From positions 310,001 through 374,000 of the forward strand of contig JAIYAE010000004.1 in NCBI GenBank assembly GCA_027489175.1: a stretch of DNA of 64,000 nt. The letters run 5' to 3'. Each line of letters begins with the position of its first letter. The stretch's first letter is position 1. Position numbers and translations under genes: made by a program. This document shows, in pieces, positions 18,996-51,601 of the stretch. The notes beneath the pieces were generated by a model. That model saw only the letters and a list, made by a program, of their open reading frames with translations, was not told the origin of the DNA and searched no databases. The stretch is from Rhodobacter sp. Its GTDB lineage: Bacteria; Pseudomonadota; Alphaproteobacteria; Rhodobacterales; Rhodobacteraceae.

Positions 18996-20636
<1,641 letters not shown>

Positions 20637-20654
20637 TGTGTCTCCAGTCCGCAA

Positions 20655-28311: not shown

Positions 28312-29436
28312 TTAATTTCTACTCCATCCAATCCAGGCCCATCGAGCGCATTCAGCGCGATGCCGATCCTGCAATAACTTCAACTTAGAAAACTGGCGGT
28401 CTACGCTCCTACTAAACCCTGAAGTATACTCTTTCGGGTCGAAGACCCCGAGGCTTTCCAGCGCTGTCATCGCGCTGTCCAAATGCTCGTCGAGATGTCG
28501 GTGGAAGGCATCCGCATCAAACTCCCCACGACGTTCAAGTTCGAGCTGTAGGACATTCTTGATCAGAAGTGCCCGAACTTGAGGATGGGGATGCGTGCTG
28601 GACTTTTCGAACCTATGGCGTGTTCCCTCAATGTAGCAGAACAGGACAAAGAGCGAAGCGATTACGATCGCCGTTGTGTGCTCTAGGTCATAACCGTCAG
28701 GGTCCGAGAACACATCGGCTGTTCGCCCATTCGGTTTGATGTCGGCGACCAGCCCCTCGACGAACTGTGCTAGGAGGCCGCCACCAATCATGTCGGCGTC
28801 TGCCTCCCAAGCCAATCGCCGGTCGATATCAGCGACCGAAGACCTTCTGATTGCGACGAGTTCTGCGATCGCGTCTCCACCACCGAAGTGCTTAATGCCT
28901 TCGCAGTGCCCACAGAGCACGTGGCCTAACTCATGCAGTACAACAAAGGTACTGCAGATATCGGCCAACGTTCCGGCCGCAAAAGCGCGGATGGGGCTGC
29001 AGCTCACTTTCCATTCCGCCGTTCGCTCAAAATCGGATGGATCAATTGCGAAGGGGACAGTGAAGTGCGACGCGGCCATGCCCGCGCTGTCGAGACGGGG
29101 TAGGAACCTCTTATCGCTCAACAGACCGTAGAAGAGCGCCAGGTTGAACAGTGGTACGGCTGCGTTCAGCTCGACCTGGTACCGGCCTGAAACGAGCCCC
29201 GCGTAGGCATTGTACTCCCTGTCATCGATGTATCGGAACGAAACGGCATCGATCGGTTTGCCGAATGCATCCTGCAGAGACTGGCAAGCAGATCGAGCGC
29301 GTCGTTCAAGGAACTCGAACTCGCGGCGTATGCCTTCGTCTCCCAGGGTAGCGGGATCGAAAGTTGGCAAACTCGTCTCTCCCTGCCAGCGAGCATCCGA
29401 GGTGACTTGCACATCTGTCTTGGCAATGTGCGCCAC
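28312..29436 (-). CDS. HExxH zinc metallopeptidase-like protein
   Basis: A soluble protein of about 374 residues with a gluzincin-like site: FVVLHELGHVLCGH (HExxH) and, about 45 residues on, AWEADADMIGG, whose Glu would be the third zinc ligand. The arrangement recalls M48-like peptidases and Lit-type phage-exclusion proteases, but I cannot assign it. The start is unclear: the frame is open to 29649, but that extension looks non-coding, and a long inverted repeat at 29489-29520 suggests the promoter is there. GTG at 29436 is my choice, with weak ribosome-binding support. Position among defence genes suggests a role in immunity or element control. Confidence 0.6.
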   Translation of the reverse strand: MAHIAKTDVQVTSDARWQGETSLPTFDPATLGDEGIRREFEFLERRARSACQSLQDAFGKPIDAVSFRYIDDREYNAYAGLVSGRYQVELNAAVPLFNLALFYGLLSDKRFLPRLDSAGMAASHFTVPFAIDPSDFERTAEWKVSCSPIRAFAAGTLADICSTFVVLHELGHVLCGHCEGIKHFGGGDAIAELVAIRRSSVADIDRRLAWEADADMIGGGLLAQFVEGLVADIKPNGRTADVFSDPDGYDLEHTTAIVIASLFVLFCYIEGTRHRFEKSSTHPHPQVRALLIKNVLQLELERRGEFDADAFHRHLDEHLDSAMTALESLGVFDPKEYTSGFSRSVDRQFSKLKLLQDRHRAECARWAWIGWSRN

Positions 29437-29488
29437 ACCGCGACTTTGTCCCAGGACCGCAGTTGCGGGCAACGGACGCAGGACGCGC

Positions 29489-29520
29489 AAGATGTGTTTT
29501 GTAGTACAAAACCATCTTGG
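29489..29520. promoter_or_regulatory. 32-bp inverted repeat upstream of the metallopeptidase gene
   Basis: The outer arms CAAGATG/CATCTTG and inner arms GTTTTGTA/TACAAAAC surround one central base, with a single unpaired T. The whole is almost perfectly symmetric. It lies about 55 bp upstream of the GTG I propose for the peptidase, a likely position for an operator or promoter hairpin. Confidence 0.6.
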
Positions 29521-29950
29521 CAAGGGGACCGCTGCGCGCCCCCGTTGCATCCCCCAGGCCGTGGCTCCGTCAGGGCATTGAACCCACGCCGGAGCCAGCA
29601 GACCGTATCGCCGGTCAACCACTCGCGGGAGACTTCGCTCTCCCTGCACCCATCGATCCCTTCGGGAAGATCAGGGGCTATCGCGACCCCTGAACCCACT
29701 CGCACCGTCTGGCCGATGCATCACCAATCGGAGGAGCGTTCCTGCTACCCCCGATGCCCCCATGACCACTTCATGGAGACGATTTCATCGAGACCAAGGA
29801 GGGGAGCCTTCGCGCTACCCTTCCTTGGAACCATCCCATCGACCACGGGGAGCTTCACACCCCTTGGAACCCCGACCAACCTTTCGCAGGTTGGATGCGC
29901 GCCCACTTGAACAGGTGCCGGTCACCTCACTTTTCCGAAGGAAGTCAGCC
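29521..29950. other. Non-coding, pyrimidine-rich stretch before the defence operon
   Basis: About 430 bp with no gene that I can support on either strand; the open frames here have atypical composition and no ribosome-binding sites. It is rich in CCC/CCTT runs and has a short inverted repeat (CAGGGGCTATCGCGACCCCTG) near 29672-29692. Confidence 0.5.
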
Positions 29951-30004: not shown

Positions 30005-32803
30005 ATGCCACTAGCCAACTTGCTAGTGTGGCTGGAAAAGTTGGGAGCTCTGCAGTTGAACGCCGTCGAGATCGAAGAAGCCATATCTACACTGGCGGAA
30101 CAGCCGTTCCAGCCCGATGCGTTCACCTATGACTTCCTCGAAGCGTTCGGTCGCAAAGCTACCGAGATCAAGCGCCTTCAGTCTTCGGCCTCGAACAAGT
30201 CTGACCTGGGTGGCGTGCTTCAGCGGAACCACATCCACATCAAGGTCTGCAGTGAAGGCGAAGTGTCGACCACGTTCGACGCGTTGAAAGTCAGTCCCGC
30301 GACGACGAAGAGCAAAGCACGTTTCGTCCTCGCGACTGACGGCAATGACTTCCAAGCTGAGGACCTGATCACTGGCGAGACGATCGCTTGCCGGTACAGC
30401 GAGTTCCCGGACCATTTTGGCTTCTTTCTCCCGTTAGCTGGTATCAGTACCGTCAAGCAAATCCGGGAAAGCGCCTTCGACATCAAGGCCACCGGACGCT
30501 TGAACCGTCTCTACGTCGAACTGCTGAAGGACAACCCAGAATGGGGCACAGAAGCACGTCGCCACGACATGAACCACTTCATGGCGCGGCTGATCTTCTG
30601 CTTCTTCGCAGAAGACACCGGTATCTTTAGTGGGGGTACGCTGTTTACCACGACCATCGCCCAGTTCAGCGACAAGGATAGTGGTAACACCCATTGGGTG
30701 ATTAGCGAGGTCTTCCGCGCGATGAATACCAAGGTTGCTGACAGGGCAACCTCTGGTCTGCGCAACTGGGCCAACGCGTTTCCATACGTCAACGGCGGCC
30801 TGTTCTCGGGTGATACTGATGTGCCTCGCTTCTCCAAGATTGCGCGAAGCTACCTTCTGCACATTGGCGGCCTCGACTGGACCAAAATCAATCCCGACAT
30901 CTTCGGCTCAATGATCCAGGCCGTCGCGGATGAGGGCGAGCGGTCCGCGCTAGGCATGCACTACACCTCGGTGCCGAACATCCTGAAGGTGCTGAACCCA
31001 CTGTTCCTCGACGACCTGCGCGCGCAATTGGAGGAGGCGGGCGACAACCCGCGCAAACTGCTGAACCTGCGTAACCGCATGGCTAAAATTAGGGTATTTG
31101 ACCCTGCTTGCGGATCGGGCAACTTCCTTGTCATCGCATACAAGGAAATGCGTGCGATTGAGGCCGTGATCAACCAGCGCCGGGGCGAGCCTGATCGCAA
31201 AACCGATATCCCGAAAACCAACTTCCGAGGGATAGAGCTGCGCGACTTTGCTGCTGAAATCGCCCGTCTGGCGCTGATCATCGCGGAGTTCCAGTGCGAC
31301 GTGACCTATCGCGGCGAGGTGCAGGCGCGGGCCGAGTTCCTACCGCTGGACCGCCAAAACTGGATCACCCAAGGCAACGCCCTTCGACTGGACTGGCTGT
31401 CAATCTGCCCGCCCACGGGCACGGGCGTGAGGTTTCAGGCGGAGGACCTGTTCCACACGCCACTGGATCAGGCGCAGATCGACTTCGAAAACGAGGGCGG
31501 AGAGACCTATATCTGCGGGAACCCGCCTTATAAGGGGAGCAAGTGGCAAACCCCCGAACAAAAGGAGGACTTGGCAAGGGCATGGGTAAGGTTCCCAAAG
31601 CTTGCAAAGACAACCGATTTTGTTGCCGGCTGGATAGCGAAGTTTCTTGAGTACGTACAAGCTGTGCCGAATGCGGTAGGCGCTTTCGTGACCACTAACA
31701 GTATCTGCCAGGGTCAACAGGCATCAGACATCTGGCCGGTCGCCTTCAAATGTGATGTTGAGATTACCTTCGCACACTTAGCGTTCAAATGGAGCAACCT
31801 CGCCAGTCAGAATGCTGGCGTCACGGTGATAATTGTGGGCTTGAGTCGAAAATCGCAAATGGTAAAAAGGCTGTTCAGTGACGGCTTGGTTCGGGAGTGT
31901 TCTGCCATCGGGCCATATCTTGTCCCAGACCGACTTGATGTCGTCGCGAAGGCTGACGCGCCGATTGGCGAACAGGGGAAAATGCTATTCGGAAACATGC
32001 CAAGAGACGGAGGACATCTATTTCTGAGCTCCGATGAAGCAGAGATGTTGCGGCAAGATTCTGAAGTTGGACACGTCGTCCGCCGCTTCGTTGGATCGGA
32101 GGAACTGATCCACGGAAAGCAACGTTATTGCATATGGGTTTCTGATGATGACTTTGAAAGCGCCAAGGCGAACGAGTTTCTTGCTCAGCGCTTCAAGCTG
32201 GTAGCAGCAAATCGTTTAGAATCTCCTGCTCAATCAACAAGGGACTTTGCAGCGAAACCTCATCGATTTGTCCAGATCGGTGGAGTGGCGAAAAGCACTC
32301 AGATACTGGTTCCTGGAGTAAGTTCCGAGAACCGCGACTACTTGCCTTGTGACTACCAAGACGAGCGTGCGATTGCTTCAAATAAACTGTTTGCACTCTA
32401 TGATGCTCCGCTTTGGAACATGGCGCTTATAGCCTCACGCCTGCACTGGGTCTGGATTGGCACGGTCTGCGTGCGGATGAGGACAGATTTCAGCTATTCC
32501 AACACTCTCGGCTGGAACACCTTCCCTGTTCCTACCTTGACCGAAAAGAACAAGGCGGACCTGACCGCCTGCGCAGAGGACATCCTTCTCGCCCGCGAGG
32601 CGCATTTCCCCGCCACGATCGCCGACCTCTACGACCCAGAGAGTATGCCTGAGAACCTGCGGGCTGCCCACGACCACAACGACGAAACCCTTGAACGCAT
32701 CTACATCGGTCGCCGATTCAAGAACGATACCGAACGTCTAGAAAAGCTGTTCGAGATGTACACCAAGATGACGGGCAAGAGCGAGGTACGCGCCCGTGTT
32801 TAA
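30005..32803 (+). CDS. MmeI-like N6-adenine DNA methyltransferase
   Basis: A 932-residue gamma-type adenine methylase. The SAM-binding motif I reads VFDPACGSGNFL (about residue 365) and the catalytic motif IV ICGNPPYKG (about residue 505). The order of a helical domain (LIFCFFAEDTGIF), the GMHYTSVPNILKVLNPLFLD linker, the methylase core, a target-recognition part and a C-terminal helical part is that of MmeI-type proteins. MmeI carries a nuclease in its first 150 residues; here I see no D-ExK pair, so it probably only methylates. It is the first gene of a five-gene overlapping operon and would mark self DNA. The next gene overlaps it by 8 bp. Confidence 0.87.
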   Translation: MPLANLLVWLEKLGALQLNAVEIEEAISTLAEQPFQPDAFTYDFLEAFGRKATEIKRLQSSASNKSDLGGVLQRNHIHIKVCSEGEVSTTFDALKVSPATTKSKARFVLATDGNDFQAEDLITGETIACRYSEFPDHFGFFLPLAGISTVKQIRESAFDIKATGRLNRLYVELLKDNPEWGTEARRHDMNHFMARLIFCFFAEDTGIFSGGTLFTTTIAQFSDKDSGNTHWVISEVFRAMNTKVADRATSGLRNWANAFPYVNGGLFSGDTDVPRFSKIARSYLLHIGGLDWTKINPDIFGSMIQAVADEGERSALGMHYTSVPNILKVLNPLFLDDLRAQLEEAGDNPRKLLNLRNRMAKIRVFDPACGSGNFLVIAYKEMRAIEAVINQRRGEPDRKTDIPKTNFRGIELRDFAAEIARLALIIAEFQCDVTYRGEVQARAEFLPLDRQNWITQGNALRLDWLSICPPTGTGVRFQAEDLFHTPLDQAQIDFENEGGETYICGNPPYKGSKWQTPEQKEDLARAWVRFPKLAKTTDFVAGWIAKFLEYVQAVPNAVGAFVTTNSICQGQQASDIWPVAFKCDVEITFAHLAFKWSNLASQNAGVTVIIVGLSRKSQMVKRLFSDGLVRECSAIGPYLVPDRLDVVAKADAPIGEQGKMLFGNMPRDGGHLFLSSDEAEMLRQDSEVGHVVRRFVGSEELIHGKQRYCIWVSDDDFESAKANEFLAQRFKLVAANRLESPAQSTRDFAAKPHRFVQIGGVAKSTQILVPGVSSENRDYLPCDYQDERAIASNKLFALYDAPLWNMALIASRLHWVWIGTVCVRMRTDFSYSNTLGWNTFPVPTLTEKNKADLTACAEDILLAREAHFPATIADLYDPESMPENLRAAHDHNDETLERIYIGRRFKNDTERLEKLFEMYTKMTGKSEVRARV

Positions 32804-33203
32804 GCCCGTCAACTATCAGGCCCTGAACTCACGCCAAAAGGAAAATTACAACTTCCAGAAGGTCGCAGCACGACTCGCCGACTACGGTTACAACTGCTTG
32901 CGTTTGACCGATGACTGGCAGGGAGCAGACTTCATCGCCTGCCACATCGATGGTGAAACCATCCTGAAGGTACAACTGAAGGGGCGGCTAACCATCGACA
33001 AGAAGTATCTTGAGAAGTCCATCCAGATCGCCTTCTTCCACGGCCAGGATTGCTACATCTACGATCACGATGCTTTCGTTCTGCACCTTGAGCAAAATGG
33101 GTTGATCGGGGCCGAGAGTGTCACGTGGCACCAGGCGGGAGGCCGTAGCTGGCCATTTCCACCCAGTTGGGCCCTAAAATTTCTTTCAGAGTATAGGATT
33201 TGA
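32796..33203 (+). CDS. Putative small PD-(D/E)xK-type nuclease (Q-x-K variant)
   Basis: A 135-residue protein starting with GTG inside the methylase end. Residues 35-65 read LTDDWQGADFIACHIDGETI and then LKVQLKGRLTID: an acidic residue in GADF followed after about 15 residues by Q-x-K, the spacing and strand pattern of PD-(D/E)xK nucleases with the Q-x-K variant known from Mrr-like enzymes. The C-terminal part ends in WPFPPSWALKFLSEYRI. It is small for a stand-alone restriction enzyme, so it may act with the helicase of the next gene. The family call is by eye. Confidence 0.6.
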   Translation: MFKPVNYQALNSRQKENYNFQKVAARLADYGYNCLRLTDDWQGADFIACHIDGETILKVQLKGRLTIDKKYLEKSIQIAFFHGQDCYIYDHDAFVLHLEQNGLIGAESVTWHQAGGRSWPFPPSWALKFLSEYRI

Positions 33204-33205
33204 AC

Positions 33206-35251
33206 ATGGTACAGACCGTCCCCACCGTTTCCGTCACATATGCCCGCAACGGCAACAGTACCAAGCCGAACGAACTTGGCATGCGCGCCATGCAAGAACG
33301 CGCCTACGAAAAGCGAGGAGAGCAGTATCTGCTGATCAAGTCCCCTCCTGCATCAGGCAAGAGCCGGGCGTTGATGTTCATCGCCCTCGACAAGCTGCAC
33401 AATCAGGGACTTCGCAAAGCGATCATTACGGTACCAGAAAAGTCTATCGGCTCCAGCTTCGCCGATGAGCCACTTTCGAAGTTTGGCTTCTGGGCCGACT
33501 GGAGGGTTGAACCGAAGTGGAACCTTTGCAACGCACCGGGCGCAGATGGAAGCAAGGCGGACTCTGTCGGCACATTCCTGAAGAGCGAGGATCGCGTACT
33601 GGTATGCCCCCACGCGACCTTCCGTAACGCCATCGAGAAGTTCGGCGTGGAGGCTTTCGACGAGTGTTTGATCGCCGTCGACGAGTTCCACCACGTCTCG
33701 GCCAACCCAGAAAACAAGCTAGGTGCACAGCTCGCAGAGTTGATCGCGCGGGACAAGGTGCACGTTGTCGCTATGACGGGATCGTACTTTCGTGGCGACG
33801 CCGAGCCAGTCTTGATGCCGCATGACGAAGCAAAATTCGATAGTGTAACCTACACCTACTACGAGCAACTGAACGGCTACAAACATCTCAAGCAGCTGGA
33901 CATCGGTTACTTTTTCTACTCGGGCGCTTACGTCGATGACATCCTGAATGTCCTCAATCCAGGTGAGAAGACAATCATCCATATTCCTAGCGTGAACTCC
34001 CGCGAGAGTACCAAAGACAAACATCGCGAGGTCGATCACATCCTAGACGAACTTGGGGAGTGGCAAGGTACAGACGAGGCGACCGGCTTCCAGCTTGTGA
34101 AGACTTCAGATGGTCGACTACTTCGCATCGCTGACTTGGTCGATGATGAACCGGCGAAGCGGGAGAAGGTTTCTGCAGCACTCAAGGACCCGTCGCAGAA
34201 GAACAACCGCGATCATGTCGACATCATCATTGCTCTTGGGATGGCAAAGGAGGGCTTTGACTGGATTTGGTGTGAACATGCTCTTACCGTCGGTTATCGC
34301 GCAAGCTTGACTGAGATCGTTCAGATCATCGGGCGCGCTACGCGGGATGCTGAGGGCAAGACACGTGCACGTTTTACCAACTTGATCGCGGAGCCGGATG
34401 CCTCTGAAGCAGCGGTTACCGAAGCTGTGAACGACACGCTTAAGGCTATTGCCGCAAGCCTCCTGATGGAGCAGGTACTCGCTCCACGCTTTAACTTCAC
34501 CCCTAAGAGACCTGATAGCGGCCCAGTTGAAGGGTTCAACTACGGGGACGGTGGATACAAGTCTGACCAATGCAACATTGGCTTCAACGAAGACAGCGGC
34601 CAGTTTCAGATTGAGATCAAGGGTTTGGTCGAGCCCAAGAGCAAGGAGGCGGAGCGTATCTGCCAAGAAGACCTCAACGAGGTCATTGCCGCCTTTGTCC
34701 AGGACAAGCAGACTGTCGCACGAGGTATGTTTGACGATGAACTTGTTCCAGAAGAGTTGACCCAGGTGCGCATGGGAAAAATCATTAAGGAAAAGTACCC
34801 TGAGTTGGATGACGAAGACCAGGAAGCTGTTCGCCAGCACGCTATCGCTGCGCTCAACCTCACCCAGAAGGCTAAGGAGGCGGCCCTCGCGATCGGCGAA
34901 GAAGACAGAGGCAGTAACACTGCACTCATTGATGGTGTTCGCAAGTTCGCGATGGACGTTCGGGATTTGGATATCGATCTGATTGACAGGATAAATCCAT
35001 TTAGTGAGGCCTACGCGATACTTGCCAAGACAATGAGTGAAGAGAGCTTGAAGCAAGTTGCAGCAATCATTTCAGCTAGAAAGGTCCAGCTAAGCCCCGA
35101 GGAAGCTCGCGACCTCGCCAAACGCGCCCTTAAGTTCAAGCAAGAGCGCGGACGACTGCCATCGATCACCTCCACAGACGCTTGGGAAAAGCGCATGGCT
35201 GAAGGGATCGCATATCTTGCCCGTATGAAGGCAGAGGCGACCAATGGCTAA
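33206..35251 (+). CDS. SF2 DEAD/DEAH-type helicase of the defence operon
   Basis: A 681-residue superfamily 2 helicase-like ATPase. Motif I is SPPASGKSR (about residue 47), motif II is VDEFHH (about 158, DEFH), motif III is AMTGS, and motif VI is QIIGRATRDAEG (about 373). This is the architecture of restriction-type translocases (as in type I and III systems) rather than replicative helicases. The C-terminal 300 residues are acidic and helical with no recognised domain. ATG at 33206 has an AGGA site; a TTG at 33200 would overlap the previous gene. It overlaps the following GIY-YIG gene by 8 bp. Confidence 0.87.
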   Translation: MVQTVPTVSVTYARNGNSTKPNELGMRAMQERAYEKRGEQYLLIKSPPASGKSRALMFIALDKLHNQGLRKAIITVPEKSIGSSFADEPLSKFGFWADWRVEPKWNLCNAPGADGSKADSVGTFLKSEDRVLVCPHATFRNAIEKFGVEAFDECLIAVDEFHHVSANPENKLGAQLAELIARDKVHVVAMTGSYFRGDAEPVLMPHDEAKFDSVTYTYYEQLNGYKHLKQLDIGYFFYSGAYVDDILNVLNPGEKTIIHIPSVNSRESTKDKHREVDHILDELGEWQGTDEATGFQLVKTSDGRLLRIADLVDDEPAKREKVSAALKDPSQKNNRDHVDIIIALGMAKEGFDWIWCEHALTVGYRASLTEIVQIIGRATRDAEGKTRARFTNLIAEPDASEAAVTEAVNDTLKAIAASLLMEQVLAPRFNFTPKRPDSGPVEGFNYGDGGYKSDQCNIGFNEDSGQFQIEIKGLVEPKSKEAERICQEDLNEVIAAFVQDKQTVARGMFDDELVPEELTQVRMGKIIKEKYPELDDEDQEAVRQHAIAALNLTQKAKEAALAIGEEDRGSNTALIDGVRKFAMDVRDLDIDLIDRINPFSEAYAILAKTMSEESLKQVAAIISARKVQLSPEEARDLAKRALKFKQERGRLPSITSTDAWEKRMAEGIAYLARMKAEATNG

Positions 35252-36431
35252 GTCGTTTACTGATGAAGATGACGCACTTCTAGCCGAGCTCGGGATCGAG
35301 GTTGAAAACTCAGTCGCACCCTCTCGGTCTGCAACCGAAGAACGCGTAATCGCTGGGTTCGAAGAAGTGCAGCGCTTCGTAGCCGACCATGGTCGTGCAC
35401 CACAACACGGTGAAGGTAAGGATATCTTCGAACGCTTATACGCAGTTCGACTTGATCGCTTGCGAGAGTCTTCAGAGTTTCGCTCGCTCCTTGAGCCTCT
35501 AGATCATCAAGGCATTCTTGTATCTTCTAACGTCGCCGCAGTTCCAAACGTCGAGGAGCTCGATGACGATGAGCTTCTTGCTGCGCTAGGTGTCGAAGCA
35601 GAGACTTCAGACATCACGGAGCTTCGGCACGTCCGACCAAGTGCAGAGAAGCGAGCAGCTGAAGAAATTGCAAACCGCGAGAGATGCAGGGATTTTGAGC
35701 GCTTTAAGCCACTCTTCGAACAAGTCCAGGATGAACTGGACTCAGGCCTTCGGAGTACACGCCCCTTCGAAAAGAAAGCGGAAATAGCACCAGGCCGATT
35801 CTTCATAGTAGGGGGACAAAAGGCCTATGTCGCTGAGATGGACGAAGAGTTTCTAACGGCGCAAGGCATGACAGATGCGCGCCTGCGCGTAATCTTTGAC
35901 AACGGGACCGAGAGCAACATGCTCATGCGATCCCTGCAGCGCGCCCTACACAAGGACGATGCCGGACGCAGGATCACAGACCCTGTTGCCGGTCCCCTGT
36001 TCGCCGACCAAACAGCGGATGGCGATGAGGCAAGCGGAACAATATACGTGCTTAGAAGCAAGTCAGACCTACCGATCGTTTCCGCCAACCGCAAAGTCTT
36101 GCACAAAATCGGAGTAACGAGTGGCAAAGTTGAGCGCAGAATAGCAAACGCGAAGCTCGATGCTACTTTCCTTCTCGCCGAAGTTGAAATCGTTGCAACA
36201 TACGAACTCTTCAACATTAATCGGGCGAAATTGGAGAATCTAATCCATCGCATCTTTGACTCAGCTCGCCTTGATATCGAGATCAAGGATCGGTTCGGAA
36301 ATCCTGTGGTTCCGCGAGAATGGTTTCTCGTGCCACTCTTTGCAATCGACGAAGCGGTAGATAGGATAAAAGACGGAAGCATAAGGTACTATAGGTATGA
36401 TGCCGAAGCAGCTAGTTTGGTAAAAATCTGA
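35244..36431 (+). CDS. T5orf172-type GIY-YIG nuclease-domain protein
   Basis: A 395-residue protein. The C-terminal 140 residues hold a GIY-YIG-like fold of the T5orf172 kind: GTIYVLRSK (about residue 265), HKIGVTSGKVERRIANAK with the conserved Arg, and KLENLIHRIF with the catalytic Glu (about 330), ending FGNPVVPREWFLV. The N-terminal 250 residues are acidic and partly repeated (DEDDALLAELGIEVENS, then DDDELLAALGVEAETS), perhaps a docking region. It shares its last base with the start of the next gene (TGATG). It would supply a second cleavage activity to the operon. Confidence 0.82.
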   Translation: MAKSFTDEDDALLAELGIEVENSVAPSRSATEERVIAGFEEVQRFVADHGRAPQHGEGKDIFERLYAVRLDRLRESSEFRSLLEPLDHQGILVSSNVAAVPNVEELDDDELLAALGVEAETSDITELRHVRPSAEKRAAEEIANRERCRDFERFKPLFEQVQDELDSGLRSTRPFEKKAEIAPGRFFIVGGQKAYVAEMDEEFLTAQGMTDARLRVIFDNGTESNMLMRSLQRALHKDDAGRRITDPVAGPLFADQTADGDEASGTIYVLRSKSDLPIVSANRKVLHKIGVTSGKVERRIANAKLDATFLLAEVEIVATYELFNINRAKLENLIHRIFDSARLDIEIKDRFGNPVVPREWFLVPLFAIDEAVDRIKDGSIRYYRYDAEAASLVKI

Positions 36432-38698
36432 TGTCGGCGCTCTCCAATCTCTCTGACATAGATTTTGAGGAACTTTGCAGAGACATCGCTCTTAAAGAAA
36501 CTGGAATGCGTTTCTCTGGCTTCGGACCTGGCCCAGACGGCGGAATAGATGGCCGCCACGCCAAAGATGGAAATGGAACAGTCCTGCAATGCAAGCACTA
36601 CATTAACTCCTCCTTCTCTAACCTGAGGCGCGCGGTAGCCAAAGAAGTCCCAAAAATCGATCGGCTGTCGCCTGACCGCTACATCTTCTTCACGTCCCAG
36701 TCGCTAACCCCTAAGCGCAGTGACACCCTGGCCGGTTTGCTCGGTGCTCATCTTATTGAACCTGGAGATATCTGGTCTCAACAAGATATCGAAGATGCGC
36801 TACGGCGAAATCCGGATATTGAAAAGGCTCACCTTAAACTTTGGCTATCCTCCACAGCTGTTCTTGAACGGCTCCTGAAATCCGGACTGGAAGCCTATAC
36901 TCAAACCACAAAGCGCGAAATTCTTGACGATCTTCGAGTGTATGTCCGCAACAACAGTTTCGATGAAGCAGCTTCCAAACTCGAAACGGAAAAGGTCCTC
37001 GTCATATCTGGGCCACCAGGTGTTGGAAAGACGACCTTGGCGAAAATGCTCTCTTACTACTATCTCAACGAGGGTTGGCGATTTGTTGCAATCCGGAAGC
37101 TAGATGAGGGGTTCGAAATCATCGACGACGAAACCCCAACAATTTTCTTCTTTGATGATTTTCTTGGTCGAATTGAGCTCGATAGGCAATCTCTTCTCCA
37201 GCGTGAATCTGCGCTAGCGACCTTCGTCCGGCGCGTCCAGAAATCCAAGAATGCAAGATTTGTTCTAACCACACGTGCACACATATTTGAAGAGGCCAGA
37301 AGATTATCTGACTATGTCGACGATAAGCGCTTTCAGCTCGCAAAGTATCTCCTCGATGTCGGTTCCTACACAAGAAGAATAAAGGCATACATACTTTTCA
37401 ATCACCTGGCTGCCTCGAATCTATCCAGCGACCATTGCTTCGCCTTACTCCAAGGTGACTGGCTTAAGAAGATTATTGACCACAAAAACTACAACCCGCG
37501 TGTAATTTCCTCGGTTTCTAGCGATGCACTGGAAGCCGTTGAAGCAAAGGACTATCCGCGACACGTCTTCGATGCCCTAGAAGATCCCGACCTCATTTGG
37601 AGCAAGCCATTCCGCGGGCTAGAAATGAAGGCGCAGAACCTTCTCATTACTCTCTTCTTTTGCGGTCAGTTTGGGACCACCATACAAAACTTACAGTCTC
37701 AATTCTCGGAGCTACACCGACATGTGTCTGCCCACTACGGGCAACCGGCATCCCCATCTGACTTTGAAGACACATTGAGATCGTTGGAGACTGGCTTTCT
37801 TTCAATAGCGGGGCAAACAGTCTCGTTTGTAAATCCATCAGTGCGCGACTTCTTGAAATCATATCTTGTAGATCAAGCGTTCCTTGCACTTCTGCCTGTA
37901 AGCATCCAGCGTGCCGACACTGCCGCTGCGCTCTGGTCGCACATGAGGGAAGTCTTCAAACAGCATCCTGAAACGTTGAGGGGTTTTGTTGATGCATTTT
38001 TGACCCTCGCTCTGCGCATCGATGTGACCCCATCAATGAAGAGGGTGAAGACGCAGACCTACTGGTCCCATGTGCACGATGACAGTTCTCTATCGGACCG
38101 CGTTGATCTCTTATTTCAGTGGTGGGAGGCCTCCGGCAACGATGCGTTTTTGGAAAAGGCGCATGCAATGCTGGTTGAGAACAAATTAGCCTTGATCGCA
38201 TGGCGCGATGGGCGCTCATTACCAAACTTACACTGGTTTGTTCGCAACTATATTGACAATGAACACCCACTTAAGGACGGACTGCTTAGCTCACTCTCAG
38301 ATCGCCTAATCGAAGTTATTGAAAGCGGCGCACCGGTTGATGAGCTCATAACTATTGTCGAAAGCGTCCAAGAGCATATGGGCGATGAAGTTCCCGAAGC
38401 AGTTGAAGAGGCCTTGAACCATGTTGTGGGCTATGAGTTCAATAACACATCCCAGGCGATAAGTCATTTGGACTCGAAGCAGTATCTATCGGAGCACATT
38501 GAACAACTCGAAGCACTTTCTCGATTGACTGGATACGACGCTGAGCCAGCAAAGCAGATTGTAAACGAACGCCTCGCAGAGTTCGAAGTGCTTGATTATG
38601 ACGAATACCGTCCGAGTGTATCTCGCCCCAGTACTCGTGTCGACGATCGCTTTGATGACGATGCAATCAAGAGCTTGTTTTCGAACCTCGTGCGGTAA
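36431..38698 (+). CDS. Mrr-like nuclease fused to a STAND (nSTAND3-type) NTPase
   Basis: A 755-residue protein. Residues 1-130 are a restriction-endonuclease-type domain: DFEELCRDIALKETG, PDGGIDG (catalytic Asp), VLQCKHY (Q-x-K). Residues 160-420 are a P-loop NTPase with Walker A GPPGVGKTT (about 194), IFFFDDF as Walker B (about 239) and a sensor strand FVLTTRAHIF. The last 300 residues are helical, as in STAND sensor domains. Such nuclease-STAND fusions are known antiphage sensors of the Avs-like kind, in which NTP-dependent assembly activates the nuclease. Cotranscription with a methylase operon (one-base overlap) is unusual and suggests it monitors the same DNA or a back-up trigger. Confidence 0.82.
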   Translation: MSALSNLSDIDFEELCRDIALKETGMRFSGFGPGPDGGIDGRHAKDGNGTVLQCKHYINSSFSNLRRAVAKEVPKIDRLSPDRYIFFTSQSLTPKRSDTLAGLLGAHLIEPGDIWSQQDIEDALRRNPDIEKAHLKLWLSSTAVLERLLKSGLEAYTQTTKREILDDLRVYVRNNSFDEAASKLETEKVLVISGPPGVGKTTLAKMLSYYYLNEGWRFVAIRKLDEGFEIIDDETPTIFFFDDFLGRIELDRQSLLQRESALATFVRRVQKSKNARFVLTTRAHIFEEARRLSDYVDDKRFQLAKYLLDVGSYTRRIKAYILFNHLAASNLSSDHCFALLQGDWLKKIIDHKNYNPRVISSVSSDALEAVEAKDYPRHVFDALEDPDLIWSKPFRGLEMKAQNLLITLFFCGQFGTTIQNLQSQFSELHRHVSAHYGQPASPSDFEDTLRSLETGFLSIAGQTVSFVNPSVRDFLKSYLVDQAFLALLPVSIQRADTAAALWSHMREVFKQHPETLRGFVDAFLTLALRIDVTPSMKRVKTQTYWSHVHDDSSLSDRVDLLFQWWEASGNDAFLEKAHAMLVENKLALIAWRDGRSLPNLHWFVRNYIDNEHPLKDGLLSSLSDRLIEVIESGAPVDELITIVESVQEHMGDEVPEAVEEALNHVVGYEFNNTSQAISHLDSKQYLSEHIEQLEALSRLTGYDAEPAKQIVNERLAEFEVLDYDEYRPSVSRPSTRVDDRFDDDAIKSLFSNLVR

Positions 38699-38717: not shown

Positions 38718-40985
38718 CTATGTTGCCCCTGCCTGAGGGAAGGCAACGACGTTCTCTTGGTCGTCATTTGCGGCAATCGGCAGTTCCTGATAGTCATCGC
38801 CCATCATCATCTTGAAGTGCGCGCCGTGATCCGACACTTCGAAAATTCTCTGGAACACAATGAGATAGCGATCAATGAGGCCTGGATCACAGGCCATGTA
38901 GAGGTCATCCACTGCGAAATGCGACCCATCATTGACCCATGAGAGCAGGGTGTTGCATATCGTCTTATCTTTACCGTCGAACTTTTCGATGATGTCTTCA
39001 GGTGTAATGCCGCCGTAGAATTTGAAGTAATGCTCCAAAATTCGACGCATGACATTCTGAATCGCTGTATCCGAGGGAGGCTTCTGTCTAATTTCACGCC
39101 AAAGCAGTTCATAGCTGGACTTGATCGGGTTCTCGTCGTGTGAAACAAGCACTGATCGTGCCGATGACTTACGCACGACCCAAAACGTCTCGTCGGCCTT
39201 TGCCTTTCCAGCGCTGCGCTTTTTGTCGAACGTGACTTCCTTGTGGAAGTAGACATTATGGGTGAGAACAAACACCTGCTTGATCGGGCTTGTGCCTGTG
39301 CGCATCTCAGCGACGACCTTCTTAATCAGATTGCAGACGATAAAGAGAATGTCAGCATCCAGACTCGAAACGGGGTCATCGAATACAACAACCCTGTCGT
39401 TAGTGCCGCCGCTAGAGCTAAATGATCCTTCCACCAGATAGTAGAAGTAGAGGAACGTAATAAAGGATTTCTCACCTTCGCTTAAGGTCTTCTTGGCGTC
39501 AGAACCGTCTGGGCGCTTGACCTCGTAGAAGCCGCTTTCGGCGCTTTCTACCAGATGGAAGTTTGTGAAGCCAAAGGACTTGAGCAGTTTGTTGATTGCA
39601 TCAATCGTCGGTTTGATGCTCGTTATCTTCTTCTCGTTCTCTTCGATCTCTGACTGCTTGGCCTCAAGCTCGGTCGATGACTTCCCGATCTTTGTTTCAA
39701 GGGCATTAATAGCGGAGTCGAGGGCGCCGCTGTCTGTTTTGAATTTTGTGAATATCCCTTTCGTGTCTTCGAGCAGCCGCTTCCAAATCTGCGAAATGAG
39801 TTCCTTTTTTCGTGCGGCGAGGTTGTCAATGATATCGTTATTCGCTGTCACCTTGGTGTTTGCAGCACCAATATGCGCAGCGACGGCAGCGAACATCGGA
39901 GCCGTGTCGATGAGCGTGACGGGCGTGCTCGGCTCTTTTTTCTTCGCCTGGATATGCTCGACGTTGGTTTCCAGCGCGAGCCGAAGTGCGGTAAGGTCTT
40001 TCTCGTAAGCGTCGCGTTCAAGGTATGGTGAGTCAATGATGTCAGTGCCGCCAAGTACGTTCAGAATTTCCTTCACCGCCTCCGCGTAGTCTTTAAGGAG
40101 CTTTTCGACTGTCGCAAGGTCGTCGATATAGCTCTGGTCGAAGTAATCTTCGAGACTCTTTCTGAAGGCCGCATCTGTCTTTTGCTGGCAGAAAGGGCAC
40201 TGGTCGTCCAGTTGATCGAAATACTGCCGCCCCTGTTGAACCCAGTCACTGTTGCCGAGCTTCACAATGAGCGCTGCGATATCCACGTCTGTTTTGCCGA
40301 TGATCTTCTTTTTCAGGATCGGCGCGCTCTCCAGCGTCAGCATTTCCGAGCTGTCTTGTGACGGCAGCACCGCTGCTTTTGAAAGCGAGCCAGAGAACAC
40401 TGTCATCGCATCTTCGCGGAGATCGGCAATGTCCCTGACAATCGCGGTATTGGTTGCCGCCTCGGTCAGATACCGCTCGCAAAAGTTCTTCTTGTTGTTG
40501 TTCAGGCCTGTGAACGCAGCGTCGAGGTCATCGAACTTCTTCTTCGCGCTCCAGACATCTTCGACAAGCTGCGCGCCAAGTGCATCACGGTCTTTCTTCT
40601 TCCCGCCTTTACCATCGTCGCCGAGGAGGGTTCTGCGAAGGCCGAGAAGCGTTTTGTTGATCTCATCCGCTTCACCCTTGAGCGTCTTGATCTTCTCGGC
40701 GACTTCGACGTTCTCGCCAAAAGTGTAGATGCCCTTGATACTGCTTTCAGCATCGAAGTGCCGTTCCACAAAATCCTTGTTGTAGACGCGTGTTTCGAGC
40801 TTTGCTCCTCCTGCCCAGGTGATTATGCACGCATTGAAGGTTCCTGATCCTTCGATTACGCGTGAGATTGTCGTTTTGCCTGATCCGTTTGAACCGAAGA
40901 TAAAATTGAGTTTTCTCAGCCCATGAAGTTGGGTCCCTGTGGTATCGTAAGCGCCTTCGTTTGCCAGATGGATTGTTTCAATCAT
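38718..40985 (-). CDS. RloC/PrrC-like AAA ATPase, putative anticodon nuclease with zinc-hook motif
   Basis: A 755-residue AAA_13-type ATPase: Walker A GSNGSGKT (31-38), a coiled coil interrupted by CPFC (about 263), ABC-type signature LSEGEK (about 502) and Walker B VVVFDDPVSSLD (about 532). The CxxC within a coiled coil resembles the Rad50 zinc hook, which is a mark of RloC. Near the C-terminus MRRILEHYF (R-x3-E) is followed after 38 residues by a His in NDGSH, matching the R-E-H order of PrrC/RloC anticodon nucleases. RloC cuts tRNA wobble sites upon DNA insult or inactivated restriction. It is convergent with the STAND gene, 19 bp apart. Confidence 0.75.
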   Translation of the reverse strand: MIETIHLANEGAYDTTGTQLHGLRKLNFIFGSNGSGKTTISRVIEGSGTFNACIITWAGGAKLETRVYNKDFVERHFDAESSIKGIYTFGENVEVAEKIKTLKGEADEINKTLLGLRRTLLGDDGKGGKKKDRDALGAQLVEDVWSAKKKFDDLDAAFTGLNNNKKNFCERYLTEAATNTAIVRDIADLREDAMTVFSGSLSKAAVLPSQDSSEMLTLESAPILKKKIIGKTDVDIAALIVKLGNSDWVQQGRQYFDQLDDQCPFCQQKTDAAFRKSLEDYFDQSYIDDLATVEKLLKDYAEAVKEILNVLGGTDIIDSPYLERDAYEKDLTALRLALETNVEHIQAKKKEPSTPVTLIDTAPMFAAVAAHIGAANTKVTANNDIIDNLAARKKELISQIWKRLLEDTKGIFTKFKTDSGALDSAINALETKIGKSSTELEAKQSEIEENEKKITSIKPTIDAINKLLKSFGFTNFHLVESAESGFYEVKRPDGSDAKKTLSEGEKSFITFLYFYYLVEGSFSSSGGTNDRVVVFDDPVSSLDADILFIVCNLIKKVVAEMRTGTSPIKQVFVLTHNVYFHKEVTFDKKRSAGKAKADETFWVVRKSSARSVLVSHDENPIKSSYELLWREIRQKPPSDTAIQNVMRRILEHYFKFYGGITPEDIIEKFDGKDKTICNTLLSWVNDGSHFAVDDLYMACDPGLIDRYLIVFQRIFEVSDHGAHFKMMMGDDYQELPIAANDDQENVVAFPQAGAT

Positions 40986-41412: not shown

Positions 41413-41485
41413 CTCCCCCCGCTCATTGGCGCGGGCCTAGTTCGGTTGCATGCGCAACCTACTAACCCAAAAGGAGAAAAGACCA

Positions 41486-42385
41486 ATGAAACAAGACGTT
41501 TATCAGAAAGTGACTGACAAGATTATCGCCGACCTTGAGAAGGGCGAGCTCACTTGGCTGAAACCGTGGAACTCAGCAAACACCGATGGCCGGATCATCC
41601 GCCCCTTGCGTCACAACGGCATGGGATACAATGGCATCAACATTCTGATGCTCTGGAGTTCAGCCCTTGAGCATGGGTTTCAGTCCCCGTTCTGGATGAC
41701 CTTCAACCAAGCCAAAGAGTTTGGCGCGCATGTGCGCAAAGGGGAGGCCGGATCACTGGTCGTCTATGCCAACACCATCACCAAGTCAGAAGAGCAGGAG
41801 GACGGCACCGAGGAGGAGCGGAAAATCCCGTTCATGAAAGGCTACACGGTCTTCAACGTCGAGCAGATCGAGGGATTACCCGAGCGCTTCTATACCAAGC
41901 CCGAACCGATGGCAGGGATGCCGGAGCGGATCGGACACGCCGATGCATTCTTTGGGGCAACTGGCGCAGTCGTTCGCCATGGCGGGAACTCTGCCCACTA
42001 CAGCGGAGGGACGGACCACGTGCAGATGCCACCTTTCGAAAGCTTTGTTAGCCGTGAAGCCTACTATGCAACACTCGCCCATGAACTCACCCACTGGACC
42101 AAACATAAGAGCCGCCTCGATCGCGACTTTGGCCGCAAGACATGGGGCGATGAAGGGTATGCCAAAGAAGAACTAGTTGCAGAGCTTGGGGCAGCATTTC
42201 TTTGTGCTGATCTTGGCCTCACCCCCGAACCTGGCACCGACCATGCCGCCTACATTCAAAGTTGGCTGAAGGTGCTGAAGGACGACAAGCGCGCAATCTT
42301 CTCCGCAGCCGCTCACGCACAAAGGGCAGCTGACTATCTGCACGGGCTCCAGCAAACCCAGGCCGATGAAGGAGTCGCCGCGTAA
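41486..42385 (+). CDS. ardC: ArdC-like antirestriction protein / zincin
   Basis: A 299-residue protein. The N-terminal domain (VYQKVTDKIIADLEKGELTW, KPWNSANTDGRIIRPLRHNG, YNGINILML) is the ssDNA-binding ArdC N-domain; the C-terminal part has a zincin site, TLAHELTHWTKH (HExxH), followed by YAKEELVAELGAAFLC with the third ligand Glu. ArdC proteins of conjugative elements protect incoming single-stranded DNA from restriction. The ATG at 41486 has an AAGGAG site; the upstream extension is unsupported. It lies on an element that itself encodes restriction genes, so it would counter foreign host systems during entry. Confidence 0.9.
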   Translation: MKQDVYQKVTDKIIADLEKGELTWLKPWNSANTDGRIIRPLRHNGMGYNGINILMLWSSALEHGFQSPFWMTFNQAKEFGAHVRKGEAGSLVVYANTITKSEEQEDGTEEERKIPFMKGYTVFNVEQIEGLPERFYTKPEPMAGMPERIGHADAFFGATGAVVRHGGNSAHYSGGTDHVQMPPFESFVSREAYYATLAHELTHWTKHKSRLDRDFGRKTWGDEGYAKEELVAELGAAFLCADLGLTPEPGTDHAAYIQSWLKVLKDDKRAIFSAAAHAQRAADYLHGLQQTQADEGVAA

Positions 42386-48045: not shown

Positions 48046-49028
48046 CTACTCTGCAGCAACACTAGTCCGCATAAGGTCCAGGTCTTGAACTCGCATGACG
48101 TCCATCAACCTACGGCCCACCCATTCGGCGACGGGCGGCGTAACTGAGTTTCCGACCGCGTGGTAGCGGAGACTATCAATCCGGTCTGACTGCTTTTCGT
48201 CGAAATCGTGCGGGCGGGTCCAATCCAGTGGAAAGCCTTGCGCCAACTCAGTTTCGTTTGGTGTAAAGCGGCGGACCCTGCCTTCAGGATACCAAACATA
48301 GTTCCGAGACCAATCGGTTCCCGTGTGTCTCGCAGACTCAGCATAGATGCAGTGTGCGATTGATTTTACGAGCGGTCCCCGCTCAGGATCTCCAACGATT
48401 GTCTGAAAGAGGGAGGGAGATTTCTTCCCATCCGATCTACGCGCCGAAGAATCCCCACTGCCGCATTTTGGCTCAAAAAGTATTTCTCCGAGACCGGCCC
48501 TGTCTCGATGCATGGCAACAATGTAGACACGACGGCGTTGTTGGGGGACTCCGAAGTGCTTACTGTCAAGCACACGCCACGCGACGTCATACCCGCATTG
48601 GTCCAACGCTTTGAGAACGACGGCGAAGTCACGTCCGCCGTGGCTAGAGAGAAGCCCGTGGACGTTTTCAAGGATAATGGCTCTCGGGTTGCGTCCTCGA
48701 ACAAGCCGCATAAAGTCGTGAAAGAGTCCAGACTGGCTTCCGCCAAGCCCTGATCGCGGCCCCATTCGTGCCAAGCTGAGGTCTTGGCAGGGGAAGCCTG
48801 CGGCCCAAACGTCAGAGGTAGGGATTCTTGAGTCATCGAGTTTCCTGATGTCATCGTCAATGGGCAGGTTTGGCCAGTGCTGTCTGAGGATGTCGCGGCA
48901 AAACGGTTTCACTTCGCACTGGAACACCACGCGAAAGCCCGCCCGCTCAAGCCCAAGGTCAAGGCCCCCGATGCCTGAGAAGAATGATGCGACGGTATAC
49001 AGCTTAGCGCCCCCCCGGTGCGGAACAT
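48046..49028 (-). CDS. C5-cytosine DNA methyltransferase, start interrupted by a G7 tract (frameshifted or phase-off)
   Basis: From the conserved motif I (SFFSGIGGLDLGLERAGFR) to the C-terminus the frame is intact: catalytic loop GFPCQDLS (motif IV), ILENVHGL (VI), VPQQRRRVYIVA (VIII), VGNSVTPPVAEW (X). No ATG, GTG or TTG precedes motif I in this frame; only GTG downstream (48930) or a CTG (49002). An ATG at 49028 reaches it only if the C7 tract at 49010-49016 (G7 in the gene) had eight residues; it would then read MFRTGGGAKLYTVASFFSG. So the gene seems off through a one-base slip, or the sequence has an error. Partner of the divergent HNH gene. Confidence 0.78.
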
Positions 49029-51577: not shown

Positions 51578-51601
51578 TTCAATCCTCTCTTGCAGCACCA
51601 T
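51578..51601 (+). repeat. Right attachment repeat (copy of tRNA-Thr 3' end)
   Basis: 24 bp identical to 19071-19094. No tRNA 5' part is present, so it is not a second gene. The one-mismatch match to 45645-45669 extends from 51595 to 51619, so the full attachment core of element B is about 42 bp. Confidence 0.92.

Follow-up and report, generated by a model that had tools for sequence, protein, structure and literature searches.

The window analysed here is a stretch of 64,000 nucleotides (nt) from a Rhodobacter sp. genome (assembly GCA_027489175.1, 3.77 Mb in 39 contigs; contig JAIYAE010000004.1, positions 310,001–374,000 of the forward strand), and it carries on its plus strand a run of five closely spaced genes which the initial annotation had presented as a defence operon without a known system name. 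A name exists for three of them: genes 1, 3 and 4 are the described DnmA–YeeB–YeeC cluster, for which a role as a Type I-like restriction–modification (RM) system was already suggested in the available sections of two papers (PMC7261158, PMC9973331). Gene 2 lies in a slot between the methylase and helicase genes that has varying contents and was filled in roughly half of the loci sampled, and gene 5 lies at a looser site downstream. The presumed unknown five-gene system is recast as an established core that bears an exchange slot specific to one junction. Taken as a whole, the statement that the locus is a Type I-like restriction core with exchangeable accessory cargo, the role of the cargo being understood loosely, was judged on balance probable.

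All five open reading frames (ORFs) were present and co-directional, and the identities previously given to the genes agreed with their Pfam domains. Gene 1 (30056–32803) encodes a DnmA/YeeA-type, MmeI-like adenine methylase with a target recognition domain (TRD) and a lost N-terminal nuclease site; Pfam matches covered the full MmeI architecture (MmeI_N, hel, Mtase, TRD and C; Mtase E 2.8e-106), and the PADLOC match was REase_MTase_IIG with 907 bits. The gene itself had been called correctly, and its start had been placed at ATG 30005; the frame is also open from TTG 29987, and TTG 30056 is the likelier start, judged from a GGGAG shortly upstream and from the matches of four out of five plasmid relatives, in which residue 17 of the longer frame is the first to be aligned. 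Gene 2 (32796–33203) encodes a predicted PD-QxK nuclease of 135 amino acids (aa) without a significant Pfam match (best row E 0.078) and is the cargo of the slot, which as filled in the window measures 396 nt from methylase stop to helicase start (32804–33199). Gene 3 (33200–35251, TTG start) encodes a YeeB-type superfamily 2 (SF2) helicase/translocase (Pfam DEAD/ResIII), gene 4 (35244–36431) a YeeC-type T5orf172/GIY-YIG putative nuclease (T5orf172 E 3e-12; MUG113), and gene 5 (36431–38698) a Mrr_cat–nSTAND3 protein, a separate defence candidate (PADLOC PDC-S73, 440 bits over residues 5–697) at the downstream cargo site. Spacings were as previously reported: genes 1 and 2 and genes 3 and 4 overlap by 8 nt and genes 4 and 5 by 1 nt, and the 2-nt gap between genes 2 and 3 holds with an alternative start at ATG 33206, the overlap being 4 nt with TTG 33200. 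Promoter and terminator scanning of the operon was uninformative, with fewer sites than in shuffled sequence.

The core was followed into other replicons with the helicase, for which tblastn of 72,556 plasmid records matched 264 records, 154 of them with a coverage of at least 80%. In each of the five plasmid records opened, tblastn placed a methylase gene upstream and a gene annotated as GIY-YIG followed downstream, and the annotation YeeB on the helicase of one plasmid relative led to DnmA (YeeA)–YeeB–YeeC of Bacillus subtilis. According to the available text on that cluster, DnmA is an MmeI homologue without a nuclease motif that gives N6-methyladenine at GACGAG, and dnmA, yeeB and yeeC form a conserved cluster (PMC7261158, PMC9973331), with an 'uncharacterized' family near dnmA as a possible further member (PMC9973331). 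The lack of a visible nuclease motif in the methylase, already noted for the window, proved general: D, E and K were found at the positions of MmeI D70, E80 and K82, respectively, in 0/109 methylases (window included; those with the N-terminus present in the retrieved sequence), and Q at position 80 in one. Residues G53-K54-S55, D161-E162-F163-H164, G378-R379 and R382 were invariant in 13 aligned helicases, the helicase profile finding no match among PDB sequences, and the GIY-YIG residues Y268, K288, G290, R299 and E331 of gene 4 were invariant in 130/130 aligned sequences. Because the nuclease site of the methylase is lost while these residues are kept, gene 4 is the likely cutter of the core.

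Loci for a survey of the gene junctions were collected by helicase alignment scans of GTDB species genomes (80 loci, the best 80 of at least 558 confirmed stretches, so that the final set over-represents the window's relatives) and of IMG/VR (43 loci), and were joined to loci from the preceding searches. Duplicates were dropped (L070, a copy of L028, and L140, a copy of L139), near-copies were retained (L123/L124, L135/L136/L148, L079/L103 and L014/L069), and 12 loci with a helicase and no methylase in the retrieved DNA, which reaches no further than about 1.1 kb ahead of the helicase, stand outside the slot counts. A methylase gene lay upstream of the helicase in 126 loci, window included, and in 121 of these the GIY-YIG gene also followed downstream. 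Gaps were estimated from the alignments; the methylase–helicase gap was at least 150 nt in 66/126 loci and below 100 nt in the other 60, with no value between, and a helicase–GIY-YIG gap of at least 150 nt occurred in 0/133 loci (L153 is incomplete, and its negative value for this gap is meaningless). By the ORF choice of the script, 60/66 occupied slots held a co-oriented ORF that was no shorter than 60 aa; L095 was counted as lacking one although it holds gene 2, which a longer antisense ORF had masked, and was assigned to the gene-2 family (c0) by a tblastn match. The co-oriented ORF started between −25 and +30 nt from the methylase stop in 56/66 slots, 40 of which showed a 4-nt overlap with the stop (ATGA or GTGA where inspected). 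Slot bases amounted to 75,683 in total, with 65,409 under co-oriented and 5,789 under antisense ORFs. In a hold-out sampled evenly across the phylum, the helicase was present in 23/398 genomes and 20 loci were fetched, the three omissions being the genome of the window, G086 (in the first set) and G643 (a contig-end fragment). All 20 had the methylase upstream and the GIY-YIG gene downstream; the slot was occupied in nine, seven of them by a family from the first set (c3, c4, c8, c9, c10, and c12 twice) and the other two by an 83-aa repeat-rich ORF and a 205-aa ORF.

Twelve families recurred in the slot (phmmer linkage at 1e-4), c6 (62 aa) and c13 (antisense) being left out of the twelve. Family c1 is a Schlafen AlbA_2 protein with a GHKL-like ATPase, c2 a PLD nuclease (SauUSI 7clg, E 1.1e-9), c3 RhuM, c4 GIY-YIG-like by eye, c9 a YhcG PDDEXK protein, c10 PADLOC PDC-S67, c11 GmrSD and c12 PDDEXK_4. 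Slot members of the RhuM, YhcG and PDDEXK_4 families matched PADLOC PDC-S05, PDC-S02 and PDC-S26, respectively, the 'S' in these names presumably standing for single-gene. Motifs in c5 and c7 may be HEPN-like; a HEPN assignment of c8 was rejected, the AlphaFold model being poor (pLDDT 68.7) and the appearance of HepT and others in the top Foldseek rows, every one with E >1, suggestive at most. An NCBIfam scan of ten slot proteins gave no match. Contents found once included RelE/ParE, AbiE, zeta-like, CoiA-like, FRG, DUF3800 and pentapeptide proteins, and toxin–antitoxin pairs outside the twelve families were seen in L017 (annotated), L094 (AbiEii, Pfam) and, by eye, in L217, L218 and L222. The slot of L218 is 7.1 kb long and holds a c8 gene, toxin–antitoxin-like genes and, by eye, a reverse transcriptase-like protein. 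RhuM has been described in RM neighbourhoods, according to the available text of one paper (PMC3710099).

Slot contents differed even between close relatives. Of 20 (non-independent) pairs of loci whose helicases share 95% identity or more and in which one or both slots are occupied, two had identical content and four more shared a family; each unclustered content carried its own label, so that such pairs could never score as identical. In 15 close pairs the TRD region of the methylase (−900 to −300 nt) was 63–80% identical, the last 150 nt of the methylase 54–98% and the helicase start 66–100% (gapped alignments with gap columns ignored, in which values in the sixties are about those of unlike sequence). 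The last 150 nt of the methylase were more alike than the TRD region in most of the 15 pairs, with L050/L052 and L056/L061 as exceptions on the methylase side, and these identities together with those of the helicase start point to conserved arms around the slot in most pairs. Fragments of the arms lay between two cargoes in 5/66 slots, helicase-5′ fragments in L014, L060 and L069 (close relatives) and methylase-3′ fragments in L032 and L154, as would be expected from cargo stacking via recombination in the arms. The window is itself a mosaic: among six relatives compared, L121 was nearest in gene 2 (81.7% nt identity) and in the methylase end (85.8%), and the helicase was nearer to L041 (78.2%) than to L121 (73.9%). 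On a helicase tree (FastTree only, with unclustered contents pooled as 'other'), 22 labels required 59 changes (minimum 21; shuffled mean 64.2), and rows with the gene-2 family alone required 8 changes for 9 rows (shuffled 8.8).

Gene 2 had been singled out as a separate small nuclease candidate, which was borne out by residues and predicted fold. G43, D45, F46, L61, K62, R64, H91 and W111 were invariant and Q60 nearly invariant in 22 aligned sequences with identities down to 30%, and Foldseek of an AlphaFold2 model (pLDDT 85.9, pTM 0.78) gave as the closest solved structures I-Ssp6803I (E 1.3e-4) and an Hjc-type resolvase (E 5.7e-4); the gene-2 profile found no match among PDB sequences. Recurrence of gene 2 at the same place was confirmed in 11/126 loci, window included, and in two further Paracoccus plasmids; it is one of many alternatives for the slot. 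The family is rare (5/385 genomes of the class, window included, and eight plasmid records). The slot of L032 contains at least two tandem copies of the family, one matching several gene-2 pieces, behind a pentapeptide-repeat gene.

Co-occurrence of all five genes, proposed earlier as a check on a new system, held for genes 1, 3 and 4 and failed for the STAND gene: no full gene-5 homologue was found beside the core in the retrieved DNA of 125 other loci, some of them with short downstream DNA, the sole trace being a P-loop match of 52 aa in L107. A gene-5 search of plasmids matched 50 records, five of them covering at least 80%, and an annotated core lay within 6 kb of the homologue in 0/6 plasmid records opened. 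In three of these six (L183, L185 and L188) an AAA-type ATPase gene came next, one of the TrlF family, and the pair is perhaps a two-gene unit. Closely following the GIY-YIG gene, a co-oriented ORF of 80 aa or more was present in 54/133 loci (72 without, 7 too short), the shorter of these ORFs being doubtful, and ten of the longer ones, when scanned, included reverse transcriptase, SIR2, GHKL, OLD, AAA_13, GmrSD-AlbA and PRTase-CE proteins. In view of these varied ORFs, gene 5 would fill, in the window, a second and looser cargo site. PDC-S73 is a candidate family for which no tested function is known.

In the mechanism proposed, the methylase would mark host sites, by analogy with DnmA, and the ATP-driven helicase and the GIY-YIG nuclease, never found separated, would attack unmarked DNA. 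The core with its catalytic residues, the confinement of the slot to one junction, the overlaps, the turnover and the arm fragments are observed anatomy; exchange of the unrelated nuclease or toxin genes would proceed by recombination in the flanking arms, probably at the methylase 3′ end and the helicase 5′ end. In the window the cargo would consist of the predicted PD-QxK nuclease in the slot and of the Mrr-STAND gene at the downstream site. The cargo would most likely provide a second line of defence, its product acting as a back-up or abortive effector whose expression is coupled to that of the core, like PrrC in EcoprrI. This is the weakest step, and a strict PrrC-like role of the cargo, taken alone, is offered tentatively; the layered arrangement that the initial annotation had suggested was judged right. 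Held with similar reserve is the wider idea that the junction serves as a general plug-in port, into which any of a dozen unrelated nucleases or toxins is recombined between the arms, to be produced together with the restriction complex, kept in check by it and triggered by its engagement or inhibition. If this were true, specificity (the TRD) and effector would form separate modules of a single immune machine, each exchangeable without the other.

Several observations weigh against a core with exchangeable effectors. Cargo is absent from about half of the cores and is in that sense dispensable, and five occupied slots (L027, L085, L088, L089 and L134) have no co-oriented ORF that reaches 60 aa. 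On the helicase tree the change count over all labels lay below every one of 200 shuffles, so that the labels are not randomly scattered; empty and occupied slots were clustered (27 changes, shuffled mean 42.1, 0/500 as low); and the shuffle test was powerless for labels of five rows or fewer. Taken together, the change counts suggest that cargo identity turns over fast and that the presence of a slot is partly tied to lineage. A loose D-x(8-20)-[EDQ]xK pattern was present within the first 130 aa of 13/109 methylases. Relatives of gene 2 were also found with tyrosine recombinases as neighbours, behind a type ISP enzyme or close to a thyX-like gene, and no common partner was seen among their neighbours; in L038 (9421–9912) a relative lies directly behind a gyrA-like gene of a same-class genome. 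The varied contexts (type ISP enzyme, tyrosine recombinases, gyrA) point to gene 2 as a recruited gene. In B. subtilis, as far as the available text reports, single deletions left sensitivity to three phages unchanged, and loss of dnmA left DNA uptake unchanged (PMC9973331, PMC7261158).

The likelihoods given to the alternatives concern single steps and overlap with one another. Slot genes might be independent defence or addiction genes that borrow the transcription and translation of the operon and do not act with the core, which was considered unlikely, though to be taken seriously: the PDC-S05, PDC-S02 and PDC-S26 matches and the core-less relatives of gene 2 place slot families apart from the core, and the toxin–antitoxin pairs listed above favour the same view, whereas insertion at the methylase–helicase and not the helicase–GIY-YIG junction, the tight coupling and the occurrence of single-gene toxins lacking an antitoxin imply some constraint. 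Were the slot protein instead an exchangeable nuclease subunit of the restriction enzyme, cutting for the helicase complex in place of the lost nuclease of the methylase, the loss of that site in all 109 methylases and the nuclease domains of several slot families (PD-QxK, PLD like SauUSI, YhcG, GmrSD, PDDEXK_4 and one CoiA-like) would be accounted for; the 60/126 cores with an empty slot, the invariant GIY-YIG residues, and cargo such as RhuM, a zeta-like kinase and toxin–antitoxins make this distinctly unlikely.

It is improbable that the core is a relic in which the methylase alone was retained to regulate genes, the view put forward for B. subtilis in the available parts of two papers (PMC9973331, PMC7261158), since in the aligned relatives neither the helicase motifs nor the GIY-YIG residues vary and deletions of dnmA and yeeB in Vibrio crassostreae led to higher sensitivity to some phages, a result given second-hand in the available text of PMC9973331. 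A single coherent new defence system of all five genes was rejected as very improbable, gene 5 being unlinked elsewhere and gene 2 one of many slot occupants. Tight overlaps do run along all five genes, and there are two distant hints of linkage, a weakly similar STAND protein downstream of the core in the hold-out locus L212 (phmmer 6.4e-8; 1/20 loci) and, in G086, a 31%-identical relative of gene 5 (residues 4–485) that is encoded on the strand of the core roughly 18.5 kb further downstream and also counts against the reading as a core with exchangeable cargo; set against them are the absence of a full gene-5 homologue from the other loci, the six plasmid records, and the replacement of gene 2 by other genes in 55/66 occupied slots.

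The operon sits on a 32.5-kb integrative mobile element in tRNA-Thr (19071–51601), which is bounded by a 24-nt perfect direct repeat with its left copy at the tRNA-Thr 3′ end (19071–19094, plus strand) and its right copy at 51578–51601 (plus strand). A large serine recombinase gene (18999–20654) spans the left repeat, and the element further carries genes for a TraG-like protein, a relaxase and a resolvase, an integrase-like gene and a weak MobC match; its G+C content is 0.49–0.61 versus 0.61–0.66. The element that bears the restriction locus also encodes an ArdC-like anti-restriction protein (41450–42385). Convergent with gene 5, an AAA_13 protein gene (38718–40985, minus strand) is a defence candidate (PADLOC PDC-S06, 898 bits) with distant similarity to LmuB and PrrC profiles. 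Immediately ahead of the operon, a gene at 28312–29649 (minus strand) encodes a protein without a significant Pfam match whose HELGH motif we take to be zinc-protease-like, and elsewhere on the element a C-5 cytosine methylase gene lies at 48046–48930 (minus strand).

The three-gene core was already known; new here is the exchange slot, which is described in no paper found by a literature search that covered few subscription papers. The surveyed loci amount to a natural collection of effectors joined to a single restriction core, which makes it directly testable whether interchangeable back-up weapons are part of restriction systems, and the slot may bear on the contrast between B. subtilis, where the core looks inert, and V. 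crassostreae, where it influences phage sensitivity.

Among known systems, DISARM was excluded, with no DrmA, DrmB or DrmC among the PADLOC matches listed for eight genes (gene 1 matched the DrmMI methylase profile with 84 bits, against 907 with IIG), and so was BREX, with no PglZ or BrxC among the same matches and PglX methylase as the only BREX-type match (28 bits versus an NCBIfam cut-off of 500); the absence of partners from both had been stated before and was upheld, as was that of HsdS. A Type I RM system (HsdM/HsdS/HsdR) was set aside, no HsdS family being found in the five genes and gene 3 matching generic ResIII/DEAD only; the hits of gene 1 to N6_Mtase and to Type I methylase profiles were weak next to the one to MmeI. 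Gene 1 resembles MmeI (Type IIG/IIL) in its order of N-terminal domain, spacer, methylase and TRD and differs in having lost the catalytic D-ExK, with helicase and GIY-YIG functions in separate genes; a Type IIG/IIL enzyme was rejected on the lack of D70/E80/K82, despite the PADLOC match. Gene 2 shares the PD-(D/E/Q)xK fold with I-Ssp6803I and Hjc in the predicted model (Foldseek E 1e-4 to 1e-2) and is unlike them in sequence (11–18% identity, TM score about 0.41–0.56) and setting, no intron or resolvase context being seen. DnmA–YeeB–YeeC of B. subtilis and V. crassostreae, as presented in the available sections of PMC7261158 and PMC9973331, consists of the same genes in the same order as the window core, an MmeI-like methylase without nuclease motif followed by an SF2 helicase and a T5orf172 protein; in the window one slot gene intervenes between methylase and helicase, and this extra nuclease gene and the Mrr-STAND gene behind the core set it apart. 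EcoprrI, in the available text a Type IC RM system with the embedded anticodon nuclease PrrC (PMC3710099, PMC3874165, PMC12707154), likewise carries an effector gene within an RM operon, the position that gene 2 has in its slot; the window differs in the type of RM system and in that the embedded gene varies over at least 12 families and is DNA-nuclease-like in the window itself.

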